Position numbers and translations under genes: made by a program. From a virus, in the IMG/VR virus record IMGVR_UViG_3300024262_006261, positions 1 through 55,999 of that record: DNA of 55,999 nt, one strand, 5' to 3'. A model generated the notes under the pieces. That model was not told where the DNA came from and searched no databases. It worked only from the letters and a program-made list of their open reading frames with translations. Positions 2,557-53,851 of the stretch are shown here, one piece after another. The number at the start of each line of letters is the position of its first letter. The first letter of the stretch is position 1.

Positions 2557-3390
2557 ATGCCAGGTAAGGTTTATATAAAAACAGAAGAAATTAGAAGAAG
2601 AAAAATAAGTGAGGCCCGCAAAGGAACACGCCATTCAGAGGAAACTAAGAGAAAGATAAGTAAAAGTAAAAGAGGAAAACTCAATCATTTTTATGGAAAA
2701 CAACATACAGAACAGTCTAAAAAGAAAATGAGGGAATCTGCAAAAAGAAGACCACCTTGTTCAGAAGAAACAAAAAGGAAATTAGGATTAAAAACAAAGA
2801 ATAGAATATGGACGGAAGAATCAAGAAAGAAATGCAGCATCGCTAAAATAGGAATACTCAATCCTATGTATGGTAAAAAGATGTCAGACGAAGACAAACA
2901 AAAAAGACGGGAATCTAATTTGGGCAAACATTTCCATGTCAAAAGTAAAGAATTGAAAGAGAGAATTAGTAAAACAGGATTAAGACTCTGGCAAAATCCC
3001 GAATATAGAGAAAAACAATTAAAGGCTATATTCAAAGGACTTGATATTAAACCAACCAAACCAGAGAGAAGAATGAGAAATGGTTTGAATAAAATGTTTC
3101 CTGGAGAATATAAATATGTTGGTAATGGTGAGATTTGGATAGCAGGAAAAAATCCTGATTTTATAAATGTAAATGGACAGAAAAAGATTATAGAATTGTT
3201 TGGTAACTTCTGGCACGGAGAAAAATGTAGATTCAAGATATATGGAGATGAATCTTCGAATAAAGAACATGCACAGCAAAGAATAAATCATTTTGCCAAA
3301 TATGGTTATAGAACTTTGATTGTTTGGGAAAGTGAATTAAAGAATATATTTAAATTAAAAAAGAAACTTGTAGAGTTTCAGAAAGGATAA
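2557..3390 (+). CDS. NUMOD3-containing, Vsr-like (EDxHD-type) homing endonuclease
   Basis: This 277-residue basic protein starts PGKVYIKTEE, the usual opening of this family. Residues about 10-125 carry repeated NUMOD3-like DNA-binding modules (ISEARKGTRHSEETKRKIS and relatives). The C-terminal nuclease domain, about 165-270, contains KPTKPERRMRNGL, NPDFINVNGQKKIIELFGNFWH and RINHFAKYGYRTLIVWESEL, matching very-short-patch-repair-like homing endonucleases such as I-Bth0305I. It would cut a specific allele and spread its own gene. GGAG lies 8 bases before the ATG. It is flanked by a truncated and an intact copy of the same nuclease gene and has a paralogue at 53108. Confidence 0.88.
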   Translation: MPGKVYIKTEEIRRRKISEARKGTRHSEETKRKISKSKRGKLNHFYGKQHTEQSKKKMRESAKRRPPCSEETKRKLGLKTKNRIWTEESRKKCSIAKIGILNPMYGKKMSDEDKQKRRESNLGKHFHVKSKELKERISKTGLRLWQNPEYREKQLKAIFKGLDIKPTKPERRMRNGLNKMFPGEYKYVGNGEIWIAGKNPDFINVNGQKKIIELFGNFWHGEKCRFKIYGDESSNKEHAQQRINHFAKYGYRTLIVWESELKNIFKLKKKLVEFQKG

Positions 3391-4373: not shown

Positions 4374-5402
4374 ATGATAGAAAAAATTCAAATAAGAAAC
4401 TTCCGAACACACAAAAGGTTGGATATAGAATTCTGTCCCTTTGTCAATTCTATTATTGGACGAAATGCTGCTGGTAAAAGCACAGTCATAAGAGCTATAA
4501 AATGGATAGTAAAAAATAAGCCTGCAGGAGATTCTATTATCAATTGGAATGCAGATAAAGCTTCTGTTCGACTTACCATTGATGGAAATAGAATAACTCG
4601 CACTAGAGGCAAAGGTATTAACATCTACAAAATCAATAAGAACGAACCGTATAAAGCCTTTGGTAGTGAGGTTCCTAAAGAAGTCGAGAATATAGTAAAT
4701 CTTTCAGATATCAATTTTCAAGGACAACACGAGGCCCCTTTTTGGTTCTGCAAGACAGCTGGTGAAGTCTCTCGTCAACTAAACTCTATCGTCAATTTGG
4801 AAAGAATAGATAGCACTCTAAAAAATATAGCTTCTTTCTTACACAAATCTCGTACATCCATTGAAATAATAGAAGGTAGATTAAGTAAAATATTGACACG
4901 ACAAGAATCTCTTGCTTATGTAGAAGAAATGGATGAGGAACTAAAAAATGCAGAACAAGAATACAGCGAATATCAAGAGATTAACTCAGAATTGGCTCTC
5001 TTACAAAATACGTTAAAATTGGTGTTATTACATAGGTCGGAGCGAAATATCGCGAGAGGTCTTAGAAGAGACAGTAAATTAGCATTGTCTAAGGGGCAAG
5101 TATACCAAGAAATATCTATTCAAATAGAAGACCTGTCAAAAGTATTGGAAACAGGTAAATCGCTTTTAATATCTATAAATAAAAGGCCCCCTCCATGGAA
5201 TCGATTAGAAATTCTCCAAACAAAACAGGAGGTGGCTTCCAATCAATATAATGCACTTGGTGGACTATTACAAACAATAGAAGAATATGAGGAAATCAAA
5301 TGTCTGAAGAAAGAAGAATTGCAAAAGCTCAAGAAAGACATTCGCAAAGTCGTCGGCGACAGATGCCCCTTATGTGGGACAAAAACGGATCGAAAGTCAT
5401 AG
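4374..5402 (+). CDS. Rad50/SbcC-like ATPase, N-terminal half ending at the zinc hook
   Basis: The ATG at 4374 follows AGGA at good spacing and gives the family N-terminus MIEKIQIRNFRTHK; an earlier in-frame ATG at 4305 lies in an RNA hairpin and is unlikely. The 342-residue product has Walker A GRNAAGKS at 29-36, a Q-loop-like NFQGQHEAPFW, a coiled coil, and then CPLC (Cys331, Cys334), the zinc-hook motif, only eight residues from its end. It lacks the signature, Walker B and H-loop, which are found in the gene at 6785. The two products would together equal one phage gp46-type protein (342+189, near the 560 of T4 gp46). The gene overlaps the Mre11-like gene. Confidence 0.85.
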   Translation: MIEKIQIRNFRTHKRLDIEFCPFVNSIIGRNAAGKSTVIRAIKWIVKNKPAGDSIINWNADKASVRLTIDGNRITRTRGKGINIYKINKNEPYKAFGSEVPKEVENIVNLSDINFQGQHEAPFWFCKTAGEVSRQLNSIVNLERIDSTLKNIASFLHKSRTSIEIIEGRLSKILTRQESLAYVEEMDEELKNAEQEYSEYQEINSELALLQNTLKLVLLHRSERNIARGLRRDSKLALSKGQVYQEISIQIEDLSKVLETGKSLLISINKRPPPWNRLEILQTKQEVASNQYNALGGLLQTIEEYEEIKCLKKEELQKLKKDIRKVVGDRCPLCGTKTDRKS

Positions 5403-6295
5403 CTATCTTATGCTCGGATTTTCATTTATCTCTCAATCCTCCAATTTTTCGTTCGGTAGAAAAGGATTGGTTCGAGGCTATGAGACGCCCCTTGGATGAA
5501 ATTAAAAGATTACAAAAAAAACATAATTGCCTTGTTCTTTGTGCAGGAGATATATTTGATAAGTGGAATAGTCCTCCCGAATTAATCAATTTTGCATTGG
5601 AGCATCTACCTAACGGAATGATATCTATCCCAGGTCAACATGATTTACCTCTTCACAGGTACGAAGATATAGAAAAAAGTGCATATTGGACTCTAGAAAA
5701 GGCTTGTAAGATAATAGACATAAATAGGAATAAAGACTTGATTGGAACAGATAAATTGGCTCTATATGGATTTCCTTATGGGTGCAAAATAGAGCCCCGT
5801 ACAAAGACAAAAGACGATGTCATAAGAATAGCAATAGCACACGAATATTGTTGTATAGAAGGACACAACTATCCTCAAGCTCCTGATGAAAGTTACCTTC
5901 GTATGAATAAAGAACGATTAGTAGGATATAATGTAATAATGTTCGGGGATAACCACAAGGGTTTTATGCATCCTATCAATCAAAATTCTACAGTATTCAA
6001 CTGTGGGTCGCTTATGAGGAGAAAATCAGACGAAGTGGATTACAAACCTCAAGTAGGAATACTATTTGATTCAGGGCGAGTAAAACCATATCATCTAGAT
6101 ACCTCCGAAGACAAATATTTAGAAGTTCAAGAAGGTATAGATGAAAAAACCTCCCTTGATATGAAAACCTTCGTTGAAGAATTAGAAAAATTGGGGGAAA
6201 CTGATCTAGACTTCCAAGAGGTGATGAAAGAATATCTAGAGAAAAACCGGATAAATGATGCTGTTTGCAAAATAATCTTAAGAGCAATGGAGTAA
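5300..6295 (+). CDS. Mre11/SbcD-like nuclease (gp47-type)
   Basis: This is a calcineurin-like phosphoesterase with the motif series SDFH (Asp40, His42), CAGDIFD, GQHDLP in place of GNHD, AHEY, and GDNHKG, as in phage SbcD/gp47 proteins. It partners the Rad50-type ATPase in end processing for recombination. The start is uncertain. ATG at 5300 has GAGG seven bases upstream and gives a basic 33-residue lead, overlapping the Rad50 N-half by 103 bases. ATG at 5363 or 5372 would place the start within the codons of the zinc hook itself. The catalytic domain is intact either way. Confidence 0.88.
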   Translation: MSEERRIAKAQERHSQSRRRQMPLMWDKNGSKVIAILCSDFHLSLNPPIFRSVEKDWFEAMRRPLDEIKRLQKKHNCLVLCAGDIFDKWNSPPELINFALEHLPNGMISIPGQHDLPLHRYEDIEKSAYWTLEKACKIIDINRNKDLIGTDKLALYGFPYGCKIEPRTKTKDDVIRIAIAHEYCCIEGHNYPQAPDESYLRMNKERLVGYNVIMFGDNHKGFMHPINQNSTVFNCGSLMRRKSDEVDYKPQVGILFDSGRVKPYHLDTSEDKYLEVQEGIDEKTSLDMKTFVEELEKLGETDLDFQEVMKEYLEKNRINDAVCKIILRAME

Positions 6296-6298
6296 AGA

Positions 6299-6541
6299 AT
6301 GGATGATAATTTAAGAAAGTATATGGAACTAAAGAAAAAAGTGGAGTTGGCTCAACAAAAGGCGGATAGAGCAGAAGGAGCTCTCCAACAAGTTATGAAC
6401 CGACTCGAGGAGGATTTTGAATGTAGTTCCGTAGAAGATGCAGAAAAGAAGTTGAAAATCTTAGAAAAACAAAAGCAAAAAGCAAAAGAAGAATTTGAGA
6501 ATGCTGTAGAAGCATTCGAAGAAAAATGGGGTAACGCCTAG
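6299..6541 (+). CDS. small coiled-coil protein
   Basis: This is an 80-residue, highly charged, almost wholly helical protein with heptad-like spacing of Leu and Ala (YMELKKKVELAQQKADRAEGAL; AEKKLKILEKQKQKAKEEF). It lies three bases after the Mre11-like gene and between the two Rad50 halves. It could brace the split coiled coil or be an unrelated dimer; no family is recognised. Confidence 0.65.
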   Translation: MDDNLRKYMELKKKVELAQQKADRAEGALQQVMNRLEEDFECSSVEDAEKKLKILEKQKQKAKEEFENAVEAFEEKWGNA

Positions 6542-6554
6542 AAGGGAGTCTAAA

Positions 6555-6788
6555 ATGCTAGTGCTTAGTAGACATGTAGGACAATCAATAATCATAGGTC
6601 GAGGGCATAAGACAATAAAAGTCAAGATAATCGATATTCAAAAGGGTACTGCTCGACTCGGAATAGAAGCAGACAAATCCATATCCGTTCATAGAGAAGA
6701 GGTTCTTAAATCAATACAAAGAGGAGAAAAACCAAAATCTCTTATGTCTATAGATTATAAAAGAGGGGAGATTAAAGGAATCAAATGA
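6555..6788 (+). CDS. csrA: CsrA/RsmA-type RNA-binding translational regulator
   Basis: The sequence MLVLSRHVGQSIIIG, then IKVKIIDIQKGTARLGIEAD and SVHREEVLKSI, follows the CsrA fold throughout. It keeps Leu4 and Arg6 and the VHREE segment with Arg47 (the equivalent of Arg44), which contact GGA in RNA loops. It has 77 residues, longer at the C-terminus than the roughly 61 of E. coli CsrA. A strong AAGGGAG precedes the ATG. Its stop overlaps the start of the Rad50 C-half as ATGA, so the two are coupled. A phage CsrA could repress or redirect host mRNAs, or control phage leaders. Confidence 0.95.
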   Translation: MLVLSRHVGQSIIIGRGHKTIKVKIIDIQKGTARLGIEADKSISVHREEVLKSIQRGEKPKSLMSIDYKRGEIKGIK

Positions 6789-7354
6789 ATATTTTGGAAG
6801 TACGAAAAAGGGTCAATGTTCTCCTTGGCGAATTAAATTCCACTAGCAGACAGCACAAAGAAGAAGAAAAGAGCCTCGAACAAGCAAAAAAAGAATTAGA
6901 GGACATCAAAGAAGCACAAGATATTGCCCAACAGGTATCTCAAATGATACAGCAACAGGCCCATCAAAAGATAGAAGGTGTGGTTAACGAATGCTTAAAA
7001 GTGGTATTTGGAGACACATATAAATTCAAGATAGACTTTCAAAGGAAAAGAGGAAAAACAGAAGCAGATTTACTACTATTAAAAGATGGGTACGAAATAG
7101 GAAATGCAATGGATGCCGACTCCGGTGGGGTAGTAGATTTGTGTAGTTTTGCCTTGAGGTTATCCTGTATTGCTCTATCCAAACCTCATCTAAGAAGAAT
7201 AATTTTATTAGACGAACCCTTCCGAAATTTAGATATGCAAAATCGAGCAAAGGTGGGAATGCTACTAGAACAACTATCCAAAGACTTCAAAATGCAATTC
7301 ATCGTGGTGACTCACGAGTCTGCGTTCAAAATGGGAAAGGTGATTGAAATATAA
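6785..7354 (+). CDS. Rad50/SbcC-like ATPase, C-terminal half
   Basis: This 189-residue protein starts with a coiled coil (about 10-65) and continues into the C-terminal ATPase lobe: the signature region DSGGVVDLCSFALRLS at 112-127, Walker B and D-loop RIILLDEPFRNLD at 138-150, and H-loop VVTHES around His177. It has no Walker A. It complements the 4374 gene exactly, giving the second half of a gp46-type ATPase whose head must form by association of two polypeptides. It overlaps csrA by four bases (ATGA). Confidence 0.88.
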   Translation: MNILEVRKRVNVLLGELNSTSRQHKEEEKSLEQAKKELEDIKEAQDIAQQVSQMIQQQAHQKIEGVVNECLKVVFGDTYKFKIDFQRKRGKTEADLLLLKDGYEIGNAMDADSGGVVDLCSFALRLSCIALSKPHLRRIILLDEPFRNLDMQNRAKVGMLLEQLSKDFKMQFIVVTHESAFKMGKVIEI

Positions 7355-34305: not shown

Positions 34306-34881
34306 TTAAGGTGTACAAACTTCTAAAGGTGATTTCATCCTATAGTAGCACGTACAAATTCCATAAGTACCTTGATCTTCCCAAGTATAATAATTAGGTG
34401 TATCCGGTTCATACCATATCCAAACAAATTCTTCAGGCGACAGGCATTTATCACCCGTACAATTACTTATACAATCTTCCTCAGTTTGGGGCGAAGAACT
34501 AAAAGACAAAGTCCCATACTGAGTCGTAGTCGTAGTCGTAGTCGTAGTCGTAGTCGTAGTCGTAGTTGTGGTCGTAGTTGTGGTCGTTGTTGTCGTAGTT
34601 GTGGTCGTTGTTGTGGTCGTTGTTGTCGTAGTCGTTGTAGTGGTTGTAGTGGTTGTAGTGGTTGTAGTCGTAGTGGTTGTTGTCGTGGTAGTCGTAGTCG
34701 TCGTTGTCGTAGTTGTGGTAGTGGTTGTGGTAGTGGTTGTAGTCGTGGTAGTCGTAGTCGTGGTTGTCGTTGTAGTCGTCGTTGTCGTAGTAGTCGTAGT
34801 CGTAGTCGTGGTTGTCGTGGTAGTTACAGGAGTAATAGTGTACTCTATCTCTTCTTCCATTATCAATTCTATATCTGTCAT
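34306..34881 (-). CDS. poly-threonine protein with Cys-rich C-terminal domain
   Basis: This 191-residue protein has a 19-residue acidic head (MTDIELIMEEEIEYTITPV), then 101 consecutive threonines (residues 20-120), then a 71-residue tail with six Cys, a CISNCTGDKC cluster, several aromatic residues and a CTCYY turn. All four Thr codons are mixed through the tract. The gene lies between tail-fibre-type genes and the glycosyltransferase island, in one orientation and almost without gaps. A mucin-like O-glycosylated stalk or virion appendage is my inference. No signal peptide is seen. Nothing suggests catalysis. Confidence 0.8.
   Translation of the reverse strand: MTDIELIMEEEIEYTITPVTTTTTTTTTTTTTTTTTTTTTTTTTTTTTTTTTTTTTTTTTTTTTTTTTTTTTTTTTTTTTTTTTTTTTTTTTTTTTTTTTTTTTTTTTTTTTTTTTTTTTQYGTLSFSSSPQTEEDCISNCTGDKCLSPEEFVWIWYEPDTPNYYTWEDQGTYGICTCYYRMKSPLEVCTP
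34522..34824 (-). repeat. 303-bp ACN trinucleotide tract encoding 101 Thr
   Basis: Every triplet on the minus strand is ACT, ACG, ACA or ACC in irregular order. Third positions vary while the first two never do, which points to retention of Thr in the protein. The tract is also likely to change length by slippage or recombination, and assemblers may misjudge its length. Confidence 0.9.
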
Positions 34882-49558: not shown

Positions 49559-50290
49559 TTACAAATCATCTTCTGTTATTGTATCACTACACAATAACAA
49601 ATCTTCATTAGGTTCGTCAATAAAATCTTCTATATCCTCATCTTCTATTTCGTCTCGGTCGTAAACCTTAAGATAGATTGTTTTGATAGTCTTAATCTGA
49701 GCATCACTAAATGTCCAACCTTCTACTTCTACGGGCACCCTAGAAACGTAATAAGTACCCCGCTTGTACAAATCATCCAAAGGAGACTCATCAAATATCT
49801 CTCCTGTTATTCTTACGTTAAGATCAACAGGATATGTCTCATCAAAATACAATCTAACATAAGGTGTATTATGCTCCCAAAACAAGCATTCTTCCGCTAT
49901 ACTATTTAGCTTATCCCTATCCAAACTCCAAAACCATAGGTTATAGGACATGATTGTAGGAACAGCTTTTATTCTCACAACACCGGTATGCTCTGATACC
50001 TCTCCACTATCGTCCAAACTGTCTGTATAAGAAACAAGGATTCCTCTACGAGCAGCCGGCATTGTCAATCGTTTACGGTCAAGAACAGTTGACTCTCTCC
50101 AAAGATTCATAAAGTCCATTCTTGTCCGTTCTCTCATATCAGATATCTTTCTAAAAGCAACTGGCTTAGGGTAAAGAACAATATTCTCCCGCAGCACATC
50201 CAACGCAGTAAAGCCCATTATAGAATAGAACTTAGACCAAATAGCTGCTCGCACCCCTTCATCAATTATCTTTAAGAATGTTTCTGCCAT
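49559..50290 (-). CDS. tail completion / neck protein candidate
   Basis: This 243-residue protein (AETFLKIIDEGVRAAIWSKF ... LYPKPVAFRKISDMRERTRMDFMNLWRE ... PYVRLYFDETYPVDLNVRI) precedes the sheath gene in transcription order. That is the usual site of tail terminator or sheath-completion genes (gp15/gp3 role). Its C-terminus is very acidic. No firm family match by eye. Confidence 0.5.
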   Translation of the reverse strand: MAETFLKIIDEGVRAAIWSKFYSIMGFTALDVLRENIVLYPKPVAFRKISDMRERTRMDFMNLWRESTVLDRKRLTMPAARRGILVSYTDSLDDSGEVSEHTGVVRIKAVPTIMSYNLWFWSLDRDKLNSIAEECLFWEHNTPYVRLYFDETYPVDLNVRITGEIFDESPLDDLYKRGTYYVSRVPVEVEGWTFSDAQIKTIKTIYLKVYDRDEIEDEDIEDFIDEPNEDLLLCSDTITEDDL

Positions 50291-50916
50291 TATCTATACT
50301 TATCCAAATCTGAACCTGGTATCGCACCTATTCCTAATTTACCTGCTATAGGATTACCCTTAAAATAAAAACCCCCTCCTACACTCTCCGGTGCTCCTTC
50401 TAAAGTTTCTAATTTATTATAATAACAATAAAAATTCCTTCCTACCTTCTTTGGTGCTCCTTCTAAAGTCTCTAATTTATTATTAGAACAACTAAAATCC
50501 CCTCCTACCTTCTCCGGTGCTCCTTCTAAAGTTTCTAAATTATTATTAGAACAACCAAAATGCCCTCCTACTATCTTAGGACCTCCTTCTAAGGTTTCTA
50601 ATTTATTATAATAACAATAGAAATGCCCTCCTACCTTCTCCGGTGCTCCGTCTAAAGTTTCTAAATTATTAGAACAATAAAAACCCCCTTTAACTTCCTT
50701 AAATCTAACAGGAATCTTAGTCAATCCCATATCACTAATATCTACATTTCCTTCGCAACTATAACTACCATCTGTATTTAATGTACATTTACCTTCTTTT
50801 AATTTATCTTCAATCTTCTCCCTATCTCTTTTTTTCATTTCTTCTCTAGATATAGGTTTGAAGACGTCACTAAATCTGTCTTGTTCTTTTATTTTATTGT
50901 ATAGTTCGTTTAACAT
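50290..50916 (-). CDS. tagged protein with leucine-rich-like repeats
   Basis: The ATG at 50916 aligns with two paralogous N-termini (MLNELYNKIKEQDRFSDVF); the GTG at 50931 does not. After the tag and a charged linker come about six repeats of roughly 21 residues with the core GAPEKVGGHFYCYYNKLETLE, of a type known in many phages. Such repeats form a solenoid suited to protein binding. The shared tag suggests common targeting with its neighbours. Confidence 0.65.
   Translation of the reverse strand: MLNELYNKIKEQDRFSDVFKPISREEMKKRDREKIEDKLKEGKCTLNTDGSYSCEGNVDISDMGLTKIPVRFKEVKGGFYCSNNLETLDGAPEKVGGHFYCYYNKLETLEGGPKIVGGHFGCSNNNLETLEGAPEKVGGDFSCSNNKLETLEGAPKKVGRNFYCYYNKLETLEGAPESVGGGFYFKGNPIAGKLGIGAIPGSDLDKYR
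50338..50720 (-). repeat. 63-bp tandem coding repeats (LRR-like)
   Basis: A unit of 63 bases (21 codons) containing the plus-strand string GGTGCTCC(T/G)TCTAAAGT recurs in phase about five to six times with substitutions. It encodes the leucine-rich-like repeats of the 50290 gene. The phase with codons shows it is coding, not CRISPR. Confidence 0.75.
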
Positions 50917-50920
50917 ATTA

Positions 50921-51625
50921 TCAAAAAACACTCTTATCTATTCCAAATTTCTCCCTCATATAATCCAAATCATGAGGCTTATCATTTTCATCCCAAGCCG
51001 TTGATTTTCCATTAGGCTCGACTTGCACATTAAATTTTATTCTTGTCTCCTTTTGCACAATAATATAGAACATATTATTTTGATAATAAAAATCTTTCCA
51101 ATGCAGTACACCTCTTTCTCCCTCATAAGATACACACCAAGAGATTTTTCCTTTACGCTCTCCTTTGGTACATACAGCATCTACTGCCACAGCAATAGCA
51201 TGAGAAGCCTCATAAGTCAAAGGTTGAACTATCAAAAATTCATCATCGTCGCGGTGAACAATCATCTGACTTTTTAGACCCTTACCAGAAGACTTTGACT
51301 TTAATCGCTCCCCAGGTTCCATCACACTCAAAGCTTGTTCTAATTCCTCACGATTAGCATATTGATAAATATCTACACCTTCTCCTGTTATTCTCTTACG
51401 CATTACTGCTTGGTCGAATAACCTTATATCATCTACCGTATGTTCTGGTCGGGTAGGGTCGTTTGCATACTCCCTGGCCATCCATTCTACATACTTCTTC
51501 TTTCGAGAAGGGTCTCCCCTAACAAACATATCGAAGACGTCTTCAGGCACCTTACCAGTATCTACATATTTAGCCCTAGCAGAGGAAACACCTTCTTTTA
51601 CCATATCATATAATTCATCTAACAT
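50921..51625 (-). CDS. hypothetical protein with short LDELYD tag
   Basis: The ATG at 51625 has GAGG upstream and matches neighbouring N-termini (MLDELYDMVKEG); an ATG four codons earlier overlaps the previous stop. The 234-residue product has LTYEASHAIAVAVDAVCTKG followed by ISWCVSYEGERGVLHWKDFYYQNNMFYIIVQ in two strands. The WC...W-x-DYY/FYY-type motif recurs in phage proteins of unknown function. It starts like its tagged neighbours but lacks FSDVFKPISREE. Confidence 0.55.
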   Translation of the reverse strand: MLDELYDMVKEGVSSARAKYVDTGKVPEDVFDMFVRGDPSRKKKYVEWMAREYANDPTRPEHTVDDIRLFDQAVMRKRITGEGVDIYQYANREELEQALSVMEPGERLKSKSSGKGLKSQMIVHRDDDEFLIVQPLTYEASHAIAVAVDAVCTKGERKGKISWCVSYEGERGVLHWKDFYYQNNMFYIIVQKETRIKFNVQVEPNGKSTAWDENDKPHDLDYMREKFGIDKSVF

Positions 51626-52874: not shown

Positions 52875-53108
52875 TTACCCATTGATAACAGAGCCCCGTT
52901 TTATCGTAATCTCGCTAAGGTCACTCTTATCCACAGCAGTCATGACTTCTGTAAGATTCTCCGTTACCTTGACTCTTTCTCCTAAATCTTTTAGATTAGT
53001 AACATCTCCTCTTTCTACACTCTTATTAGGTGAAAGGGTTCGACTACCACCACCGCCTAACCTAAGCTCTACATTTTTCGCCGAGACATTTTTTATAATA
53101 CTCATCAC
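52875..53108 (-). CDS. small hypothetical protein (77 aa)
   Basis: This 77-residue protein, SIIKNVSAKNVELRLGGGG with an N-terminal beta segment and VTENLTEVMTAVDKSDLSEI later, is of a size and layout seen in small phage structural or decoration proteins. Its start shares a base with the end of the homing endonuclease gene. Function unknown. Confidence 0.5.
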   Translation of the reverse strand: MMSIIKNVSAKNVELRLGGGGSRTLSPNKSVERGDVTNLKDLGERVKVTENLTEVMTAVDKSDLSEITIKRGSVING

Positions 53109-53851
53109 TAAATCTCCCTATGAAAAACTCGTAACTTCTTTTTTAATTGAGGTGTATTTTTTAATTCTTCTTGCCAGACAATCAAAGTTTTAAATCCATA
53201 CCTTGCAAAATGTGCTATTCTTTGATTTTCCTCTTGTTCTTTTGTTCTCCCTGTTTTTTCTTTAGAATGCCAATAATTTCCAAACATTTCTATAATCTTC
53301 TTCTGACCATTTACATTTATAAAATCAGGATTCTTACCTACTATCCAAACCTTTCCATCTCCAACGTATTTGTATTCACCCGGAAACATCTTATTCAAAC
53401 CGTTTCTTAATCTCCGTTCTGGTTTAGTTGGTTTCATATCAAAAGATTTAATCATCCTTTTAGCAAATTCGGGGTTTTGCCAATTCTTTAGTGCTATTTT
53501 ACTCTTCTTTTTCTTGATTTCTTCAGATTGACGATGCCCCAAACTATTTTTAAGTCCTATATGGGATATACTCATTTTTCTTTTCGTTTCTTTTGATAAA
53601 GGTTTTCTTTTACGACCTTTATGAGACTCACTTATTTTTTTCTTAGCTTCCTCAGAGTGACGATATCCCAAAGCATTTTGGTTTCCTATATGAGAAATAC
53701 TCATTTTTTTCTTGGCTTCTTCAGAATGTCTTTTTCCCAAATGGGATTCACGCATTTTCTTTAAGGTCTCCTTAGAAAGATTTTCTCTTTTCGAAGATAG
53801 ACTCATTTTTTTCTTGGCTTCTTCTGTTCTTATATAAACGCCACTTGGCAA
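53108..53851 (-). CDS. NUMOD3-containing, Vsr-like homing endonuclease (second copy)
   Basis: This 247-residue protein uses TTG as start (PSGVYIRTEEAKKKMS, with GGAG upstream). It has four or five NUMOD3-type repeats (RHSEEAKKKISESHKGR) and a C-terminal nuclease domain nearly matching the 2557 copy: KPTKPERRLRNGLNKMFPGE, NPDFINVNGQKKIIEMFGNYWH, and RIAHFARYGFKTLIVWQEEL. It lies between structural genes, four bases from one and sharing a base with the next, without a truncated gene or a structured leader. Probably free-standing. Confidence 0.88.
   Translation of the reverse strand: MPSGVYIRTEEAKKKMSLSSKRENLSKETLKKMRESHLGKRHSEEAKKKMSISHIGNQNALGYRHSEEAKKKISESHKGRKRKPLSKETKRKMSISHIGLKNSLGHRQSEEIKKKKSKIALKNWQNPEFAKRMIKSFDMKPTKPERRLRNGLNKMFPGEYKYVGDGKVWIVGKNPDFINVNGQKKIIEMFGNYWHSKEKTGRTKEQEENQRIAHFARYGFKTLIVWQEELKNTPQLKKKLRVFHREI

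Follow-up and report, generated by a model that had tools for sequence, protein, structure and literature searches.

Does a virus build its Rad50 from one gene or from two? The question is raised by a 55,999-base linear virus record (IMGVR_UViG_3300024262_006261), referred to here as the window, which starts inside a RecA-like gene. Within it, an open reading frame (ORF) encoding the N-terminal part of a Rad50-type ATPase (N-half) and another encoding the C-terminal part (C-half) flank genes for an Mre11-like protein, a small coiled-coil protein (cc) and a CsrA-like protein, as listed below with the basis of each assignment (AF2, AlphaFold 2; aa, amino acids). The locus probably encodes a naturally trans-split Mre11-Rad50 complex for DNA-end processing, of the SbcCD and T4 gp46/gp47 type, and many phages seem, from their sequences, to build Rad50 from two separate proteins, one of which ends at a zinc-binding tip.

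4374–5402, plus strand: N-half of the split Rad50, 342 aa, with ATPase lobe I, a long arm and a terminal CPLC (translation, profiles, structure matches)
4458–4481, plus strand: Walker A GRNAAGKS, residues 29–36 (translation and alignment)
4812–5363, plus strand: N arm, 184 residues, predicted helices 142–179, 181–269 and 276–327 (AF2, repeat analysis)
5364–5375, plus strand: zinc-hook motif CPLC, residues 331–334, 8 residues before the stop (translation)
5372–6295, plus strand: Mre11/SbcD-like phosphoesterase, 31-base overlap with the end of the N-half, start codon inferred (profiles)
6299–6541, plus strand: cc, 80 aa, two predicted helices, 2–40 and 45–77 (AF2)
6555–6788, plus strand: csrA-like gene, a neighbor outside the conserved module (profile CsrA, 1.5e-18)
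6785–7354, plus strand: C-half of the split Rad50, 189 aa, with an arm of ∼55 residues and ATPase lobe II (translation, profiles)
7121–7129, plus strand: signature core SGG, residues 113–115 (C-half sequence)
7208–7219, plus strand: Walker B core LDEP, residues 142–145 (C-half sequence)
7307–7315, plus strand: H-loop VTH, residues 175–177 (C-half sequence)

The Lobes of a Rad50 Head Are Encoded Separately

The distribution of motifs is that of Rad50/SbcC, with Walker A within an N-terminal lobe of the RecF/SMC type and the signature, Walker B and H-loop within a C-terminal lobe. The N-half matched profile AAA_23 at 7.7e-16, and Walker A residues G29, G34 and K35 were invariant across 92 aligned N-halves. 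The C-half matched SMC_N and SbcC_Walker_B, both under the curated cut-offs. Sequence searches with the N-half found the N-fragment of Pyrococcus Rad50 (4.9e-6) and those with the C-half its separate C-fragment (3.3e-5); the PDB has entries in which the N and C lobes of Rad50 are different chains (A and B of 1f2t, 1ii8 and 3qkr). Two PHROG families were also matched, phrog_16465 ("exonuclease") by the N-half at 3.5e-23 and phrog_15167 ("ATPase") by the C-half at 1.2e-26; these families are listed apart and not tied together as one Rad50.

The AF2 model of the N-half, built from 92 sequences, comprised lobe I followed by the three arm helices, with a mean predicted local distance difference test score (pLDDT) of 87.7 and a predicted template modeling score (pTM) of 0.46. 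It aligned with Rad50 chain 1f2u_A over 125 residues (Z 12.1, root mean square deviation 2.8). SMC and RecF heads matched the same model at Z scores equal to or above that of 1f2u_A, and fold alone therefore gives no assignment to Rad50.

ATP sites of ATP-binding cassette (ABC) proteins are composite, with the signature contributed by the opposite head. By this geometry each site would need three chains, providing Walker A (N-half), Walker B and H-loop (its C-half partner) and signature (the C-half of the opposite head), instead of the two polypeptides proposed by a sequence-only reading of the locus.

The Split Module Recurs in Environmental Phage Sequence

To follow the arrangement beyond the window, IMG/VR loci were collected with Mre11, C-half and N-half queries; each scan supplied at most its 80 top matches, from totals of 390 relatives for the C-half, 263 for the N-half and 307 for Mre11. 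The resulting 247 sources, all with matches, reduced to 125 distinct loci, the window counted. The order N-half, Mre11, cc, C-half on a single strand was present at 97 of these, and together with the translations, motifs and profiles this establishes both the division of Rad50 into two genes and the location of the Mre11 gene between them. A CxxC motif was found no more than 34 residues from the C-terminus (median 6) in all 110 complete N-halves, confirming that the hook, whose zinc binding is putative, lies at a free C-terminus. The Mre11/SbcD partner gene accompanied the complete N-half at 109 of 110 loci, the exception being L144.

The remaining 28 loci were incomplete; in 22 of them the sequence breaks off on the side of the missing gene, no more than ∼2.1 kb from the end of the locus. 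The six without such a cut were L107, where cc was not recognized, L258 and L265, which were without a C-half, L083, L144, with no C-half found in its 31.8-kb record, and L091, with no N-half found in its 42.5-kb record.

The sequence-only reading was to be abandoned if an unsplit relative, or a full-length Rad50 elsewhere in the genome, came to light; neither did. Each ORF at the 125 loci matched at most one of the four profiles and none joined the halves; because the loci were gathered by similarity to this family, the finding that none is unsplit extends no further than close relatives. One-chain forms occur in T4 and Vibrio phage SHOU24. Nor was a full-length Rad50 detected in the window, in 29 larger relative records or in the four complete phage genomes described below. 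AAA_23 matched once in the window record, and each of the 29 larger records, all unfinished virus records, had one over-cut-off match and one C-half. In the complete genomes AAA_23 gave one match in three and none in Tunturi_5, and in each the profile placed the N-half at a single site, matching its ORF in one stretch or two, and there was one C-half.

Matches in genome contigs numbered 37, of which ∼13 were convincing (L188–L200), and six of these contigs (L188–L191, L198 and L199) had the complete four-gene order of the IMG/VR loci. L188, filed as a Thermoplasmata genome, agrees in length and position with an IMG/VR locus of the same kind on a 36,312-base contig and is virus or misbinned; such genome contigs may therefore be virus sequences binned with cells. 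The split arrangement is widespread in environmental phage sequence.

The Two Arms Are Unequal and Only One Varies in Steps

The N arm was measured between the lobe I motif and the hook, and the C arm as the residues before the QQQAHQKI stretch. Rad50/SbcC is a single polypeptide with arms of similar length, whereas in the window two ORFs carry arms of 184 and 55 residues; the same measure, placed by eye, gave 117 and 135 for T4 gp46. In 91 of 93 complete modules, N arms fell into groups of 138–147 (n = 21), 178–188 (n = 62), 221–232 (n = 7) and 267 residues (n = 1), corresponding to steps of ∼44 residues (140, 184, 228 and 267). An arm of 154 occurred in one member of a slightly different, earlier set. 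N-arm and C-arm lengths were not correlated (rho 0.06; 65 of 84 loci measurable).

Ungapped self-comparison of the arms against block-shuffled controls gave strong repeat signals at offset 44 in arms of 179–188 residues (23.5 versus 16.2 in controls) and at offset 41 in arms of at least 220 residues (43.7 versus 19.7). The signal was weak in arms of 138–147 residues, where the top offset, 41, scored 17.9 and the controls at most 16.4. Self-comparison of averaged profiles ranked offsets 102 and 95 over 44 and is therefore not decisive. A single hydrophobic period near 3.4 runs across the first 126 arm residues; 44 residues are ∼13 such periods, and added arm units would therefore stay in register.

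The description of the locus as split exactly at the hook does not hold in the sense of a symmetric cut, since the C arm, a stub of 55 residues, fails to track N-arm length. The "other arm" expected in the C-half is present at less than a third of the length of its counterpart, and although the summed length of the halves is close to that of one gp46 (531 versus 560 aa), the agreement is coincidental, given the arms of gp46.

The Proteins Encoded between the Halves

The Mre11-like protein matched Metallophos at 1.3e-8 and possesses the motifs of a calcineurin-type phosphoesterase, with D16, H18, G59-D60, H90-D91, H157 and H195 invariant among 16 sequences, as well as a conserved C-terminal stretch; in Mre11/SbcD proteins a helix-loop-helix at the C-terminus contacts the base of the Rad50 coil. 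Its scores for specific families were under the curated cut-offs (Mre11_Sulfo, 22.8 bits versus 500; sbcd, 16.6 versus 77.65). At one locus (L018:7974-9430) the gene is in two ORFs of 208 and 113 aa ∼490 bases apart, possibly via an insertion.

The cc protein was modeled by AF2 with a pLDDT of 94.1 and a pTM of 0.56, and its fold would most simply be a hairpin. Its presence at 110 of 125 distinct loci, the remainder mostly being cut off by contig ends, bears out the expectation that a small coiled-coil protein is a conserved part of the module. Comparison with PHROGs gave no consistent family, and T4 46.1 and 46.2 were rejected as homologues. Homology to a 78-aa protein of Bacillus phage vB_BboS-125 was not detected, and the likeness to small helix-rich ORFs in distant relatives is therefore by eye only; the ORF preceding the C-half in phage Magritte bears, by eye, no resemblance to them.

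The csrA-like gene is incidental to the module. Its position between cc and the C-half, taken by the sequence-only reading as part of the arrangement, was unique to the window among 28 sources scanned. CsrA-like ORFs were seen upstream of the N-half at L013 (6865-7119) and L016 (5042-5248).

Separate Halves in Complete Genomes and Comparison with Known Systems

Separate halves were found in four complete phage genomes, namely vB_BboS-125, Microcystis phage Mvi-JY20, Tunturi_5 and the cultured phage Magritte. With three C-half queries, tblastn of the phage collection returned only these and LR745208, an uncultured huge-phage record with N-half, Mre11-like gene and C-half within 18.6 kb. In vB_BboS-125 (gp32/gp35) an N-half of 471 aa, with CPLC at 459, is followed by an AP2-domain gene, the 78-aa ORF, a C-half of 211 aa and an Mre11-like ORF; the last (L021:9247-10227, 326 aa) is unannotated. 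The order in Mvi-JY20 is N-half, Mre11-like gene, 94-aa ORF, C-half. The N-half lies at 126.9–128.4 kb and the C-half at 19.1 kb in Tunturi_5, and at 93.8 kb and 0.3–0.9 kb, respectively, in Magritte. With the halves ∼93 and 107 kb apart in two of the four complete genomes, assembly in trans would therefore be independent of adjacency.

Like the window, vB_BboS-125, Mvi-JY20, Tunturi_5 and LR745208 combine a separate N-half ending in CxxC, a C-half and an Mre11-like gene, and in three of them the N-half is longer than that of the window. Unlike the window, vB_BboS-125 has its Mre11-like gene after the C-half and a small ORF unrelated, at detectable levels, to cc. In the portions available, the vB_BboS-125 paper describes a PacBio library and does not mention SbcC or Rad50 (PMC6375668), and the accessible parts of the Tunturi (PMC11924767) and Magritte (PMC11663251) papers likewise mention neither.

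T4 gp46/gp47 resembles the split module in being a phage-borne Rad50-type ATPase with CxxC and a nearby Mre11-type nuclease gene. It differs in that gp46 is one 560-aa chain with a central CPTC, and the N-half profile matched it only at 6.7e-7. Lobe folds and motifs are also common to archaeal and bacterial Mre11-Rad50 (Pyrococcus, Methanocaldococcus; SbcCD), crystallized as separate N and C chains. The natural archaeal and bacterial Rad50 is one chain with the hook in mid-polypeptide. A single profile of 611 positions, that of LmuB, the SMC-like subunit of Lamassu, also aligns first with the N-half and then with the C-half; LmuB is, however, a single-chain defence protein, and the coil resemblance may be fortuitous. 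A search for LmuB sequences gave no clear LmuB.

In its available sections, a survey of jumbo phages describes SbcC/SbcD as nearly universal and reports split polymerases but no split Rad50 (PMC7824862), and Mre11/Rad50 fusions, the opposite of the split case, are described in the accessible part of another paper (PMC3175470). The result listings of full-text literature searches showed no description of a natural split Rad50. The function is likely ordinary and the build unusual, and the latter is undescribed as far as that searching reaches.

Co-variation of Segments and Alternative Explanations

Pairwise distances of ten segments were compared over loci with arms of 178–190 residues, and partial correlations were calculated for 62 loci. 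Lobe I and lobe II gave the strongest value of all segment pairs (0.35), followed by Mre11 nuclease and Mre11 C-terminus, which are on one chain (0.29), N-arm base and C arm (0.26), and C arm and cc (0.24; 0.33 in an earlier run of 48 loci). Values for cc and the N-arm units were 0.02–0.07; cc may complete the arm, but its distances track the C arm more than the N-arm units. A Rad50 head and its coil base would be expected to give this order of leading pairs, a result in favor of the distance method, and the co-variation is suggestive of contacts.

These values bear on the possibility that several cc copies line the N arm, one per 41–44-residue repeat, replacing the missing descending arm, with repeat number setting length. 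The repeat quantum is close to the lengths of the cc helices (39 and 33 residues), and cc is as constant a companion as such a role would imply. N-half, cc and C-half add up to 611 residues (342 + 80 + 189), as many as there are positions in the profile of unsplit LmuB, on which the N-half aligns at 5–343 and the C-half at 421–590, leaving 77 positions. Coil-to-coil profile matches of this kind are, however, easily fortuitous, and cc distances follow the C arm and no N-arm unit, making such an arrangement unlikely.

A simple gene fission is similarly improbable. Here the parts would assemble exactly like one-chain gp46, the split being a relic of breakage such as homing-endonuclease insertion, and the NUMOD3 endonuclease gene just upstream of the module in the window and the AP2-domain gene after the N-half in vB_BboS-125 are compatible with this. 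A cut gp46 would nevertheless not be expected to show arms as unequal as those observed, with steps in the N-half only.

It is very unlikely that the halves are not partners, the N-half being a RecF/OLD-like or defence-type ATPase and the C-half an unrelated ABC half. Both do match defence ATPases (LmuB, AriA and mad3), but neither alone contains a complete ATP site, the two are constantly linked, and their lobes co-vary more than any other segment pair. An assembly chimera or frameshift artefact has a negligible probability, since assembly error, pseudogene and frameshift are ruled out by the recurrence of one order at 97 distinct loci and since isolates, one of them PacBio-sequenced, have separate halves.

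Several observations weigh against a trans-split Mre11-Rad50 complex. The signature serine is glycine (GGG) in most relatives, and the C-half profile matched ABC transporters in the PDB ahead of Rad50. The pTM of the N-half model was 0.46, and its last arm helix may either continue the arm or fold back. The N-half of Magritte is without CxxC. An Mre11 profile matched no PDB chain at E 0.01, and motifs III and V of the Mre11-like protein are altered (GQHD in 92 of 100 and GDNH in 92 of 100, the first His of motif V being Asp), such that nuclease activity is not assured; judged by these sequences, catalysis should not be assumed for either the nuclease or the signature. Finally, the C arm-cc correlation fell to 0.17 (S.D. 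0.08) in 27 loci with the genes >30 bases apart, and gene linkage may therefore explain part of it.

A Model for the Trans-split Complex

From the computed lobes, motifs, gene order, terminal hook and unequal, quantized arms, we infer how the trans-split complex may associate, bind zinc, process ends, pair its N arms and place cc. In a first, well supported step, lobe I of the N-half and lobe II of the C-half would come together by non-covalent contacts to make a single Rad50 ATPase head, in the manner of the separate Pyrococcus Rad50 fragments in crystals, and two heads would sandwich ATP. No chain joins the two lobes, and the head could therefore open or swap its C subunit, unlike one-chain Rad50. 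The base of the N arm would then pair with the short C arm, where the Mre11-like nuclease may dock, resulting in ATP-gated DNA-end cutting for recombination-dependent replication. Beyond the base, the arm would consist of the N-half alone, the two N arms of the dimer lying side by side with their free C-termini clamped by one zinc between two CxxC motifs. Least securely, the cc hairpin may brace the head-proximal coil beside the C arm.

We tentatively extend this, at somewhat less than even likelihood, to a Rad50 without a hairpin arm. The distal arm of each protomer would be one repeat-built helix closed by a zinc clasp at its C-terminus. Arm length would be set in quanta of ∼44 residues regardless of the other half, the hairpin would be a dedicated subunit, and the ring could open at the head, where the lobes are on different chains.

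Other Features of the Window

Neighbors of the module include genes for the RecA-like protein, a 5′-3′ exonuclease and a PDDEXK nuclease, in keeping with the proposed complex. The window also encodes the NUMOD3 endonuclease and a tail sheath protein, and its source is therefore a tailed, sheath-bearing phage. Rfam gave no match. The NUMOD3 endonuclease gene (2557-3390), which also has a weak Vsr match, and a related endonuclease gene (53108-53851) have a C-terminal sequence block common to both. On the minus strand, 7776-33117 is a long cluster in which, by eye, numerous glycosyltransferases and sugar epimerases, together with transketolase-like pairs and a radical-SAM protein, form a block for sugar synthesis of unusual size for a phage. 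Adjoining the tail genes, an ORF at 34306-34881 encodes a run of ∼100 threonines (tandem-repeat DNA), and the protein encoded at 50290-50931 has repeated LETLEGAPEKVGG-type units.

Implications

A split Rad50 is relevant to the unsettled matter of how the long arms and zinc hook of Rad50 signal to its heads. The phage module would offer a natural form with its hook at a free C-terminus, its two lobes made as separate subunits and steps in one arm that the other half does not follow. Arm-length swaps, removal of cc and mixing of lobes would be clean tests here that are not possible in one-chain Rad50. Phage genes that now carry unconnected annotations ("exonuclease," "ATPase" and "hypothetical protein") become linked, and the split arrangement is open to testing in cultured phages.

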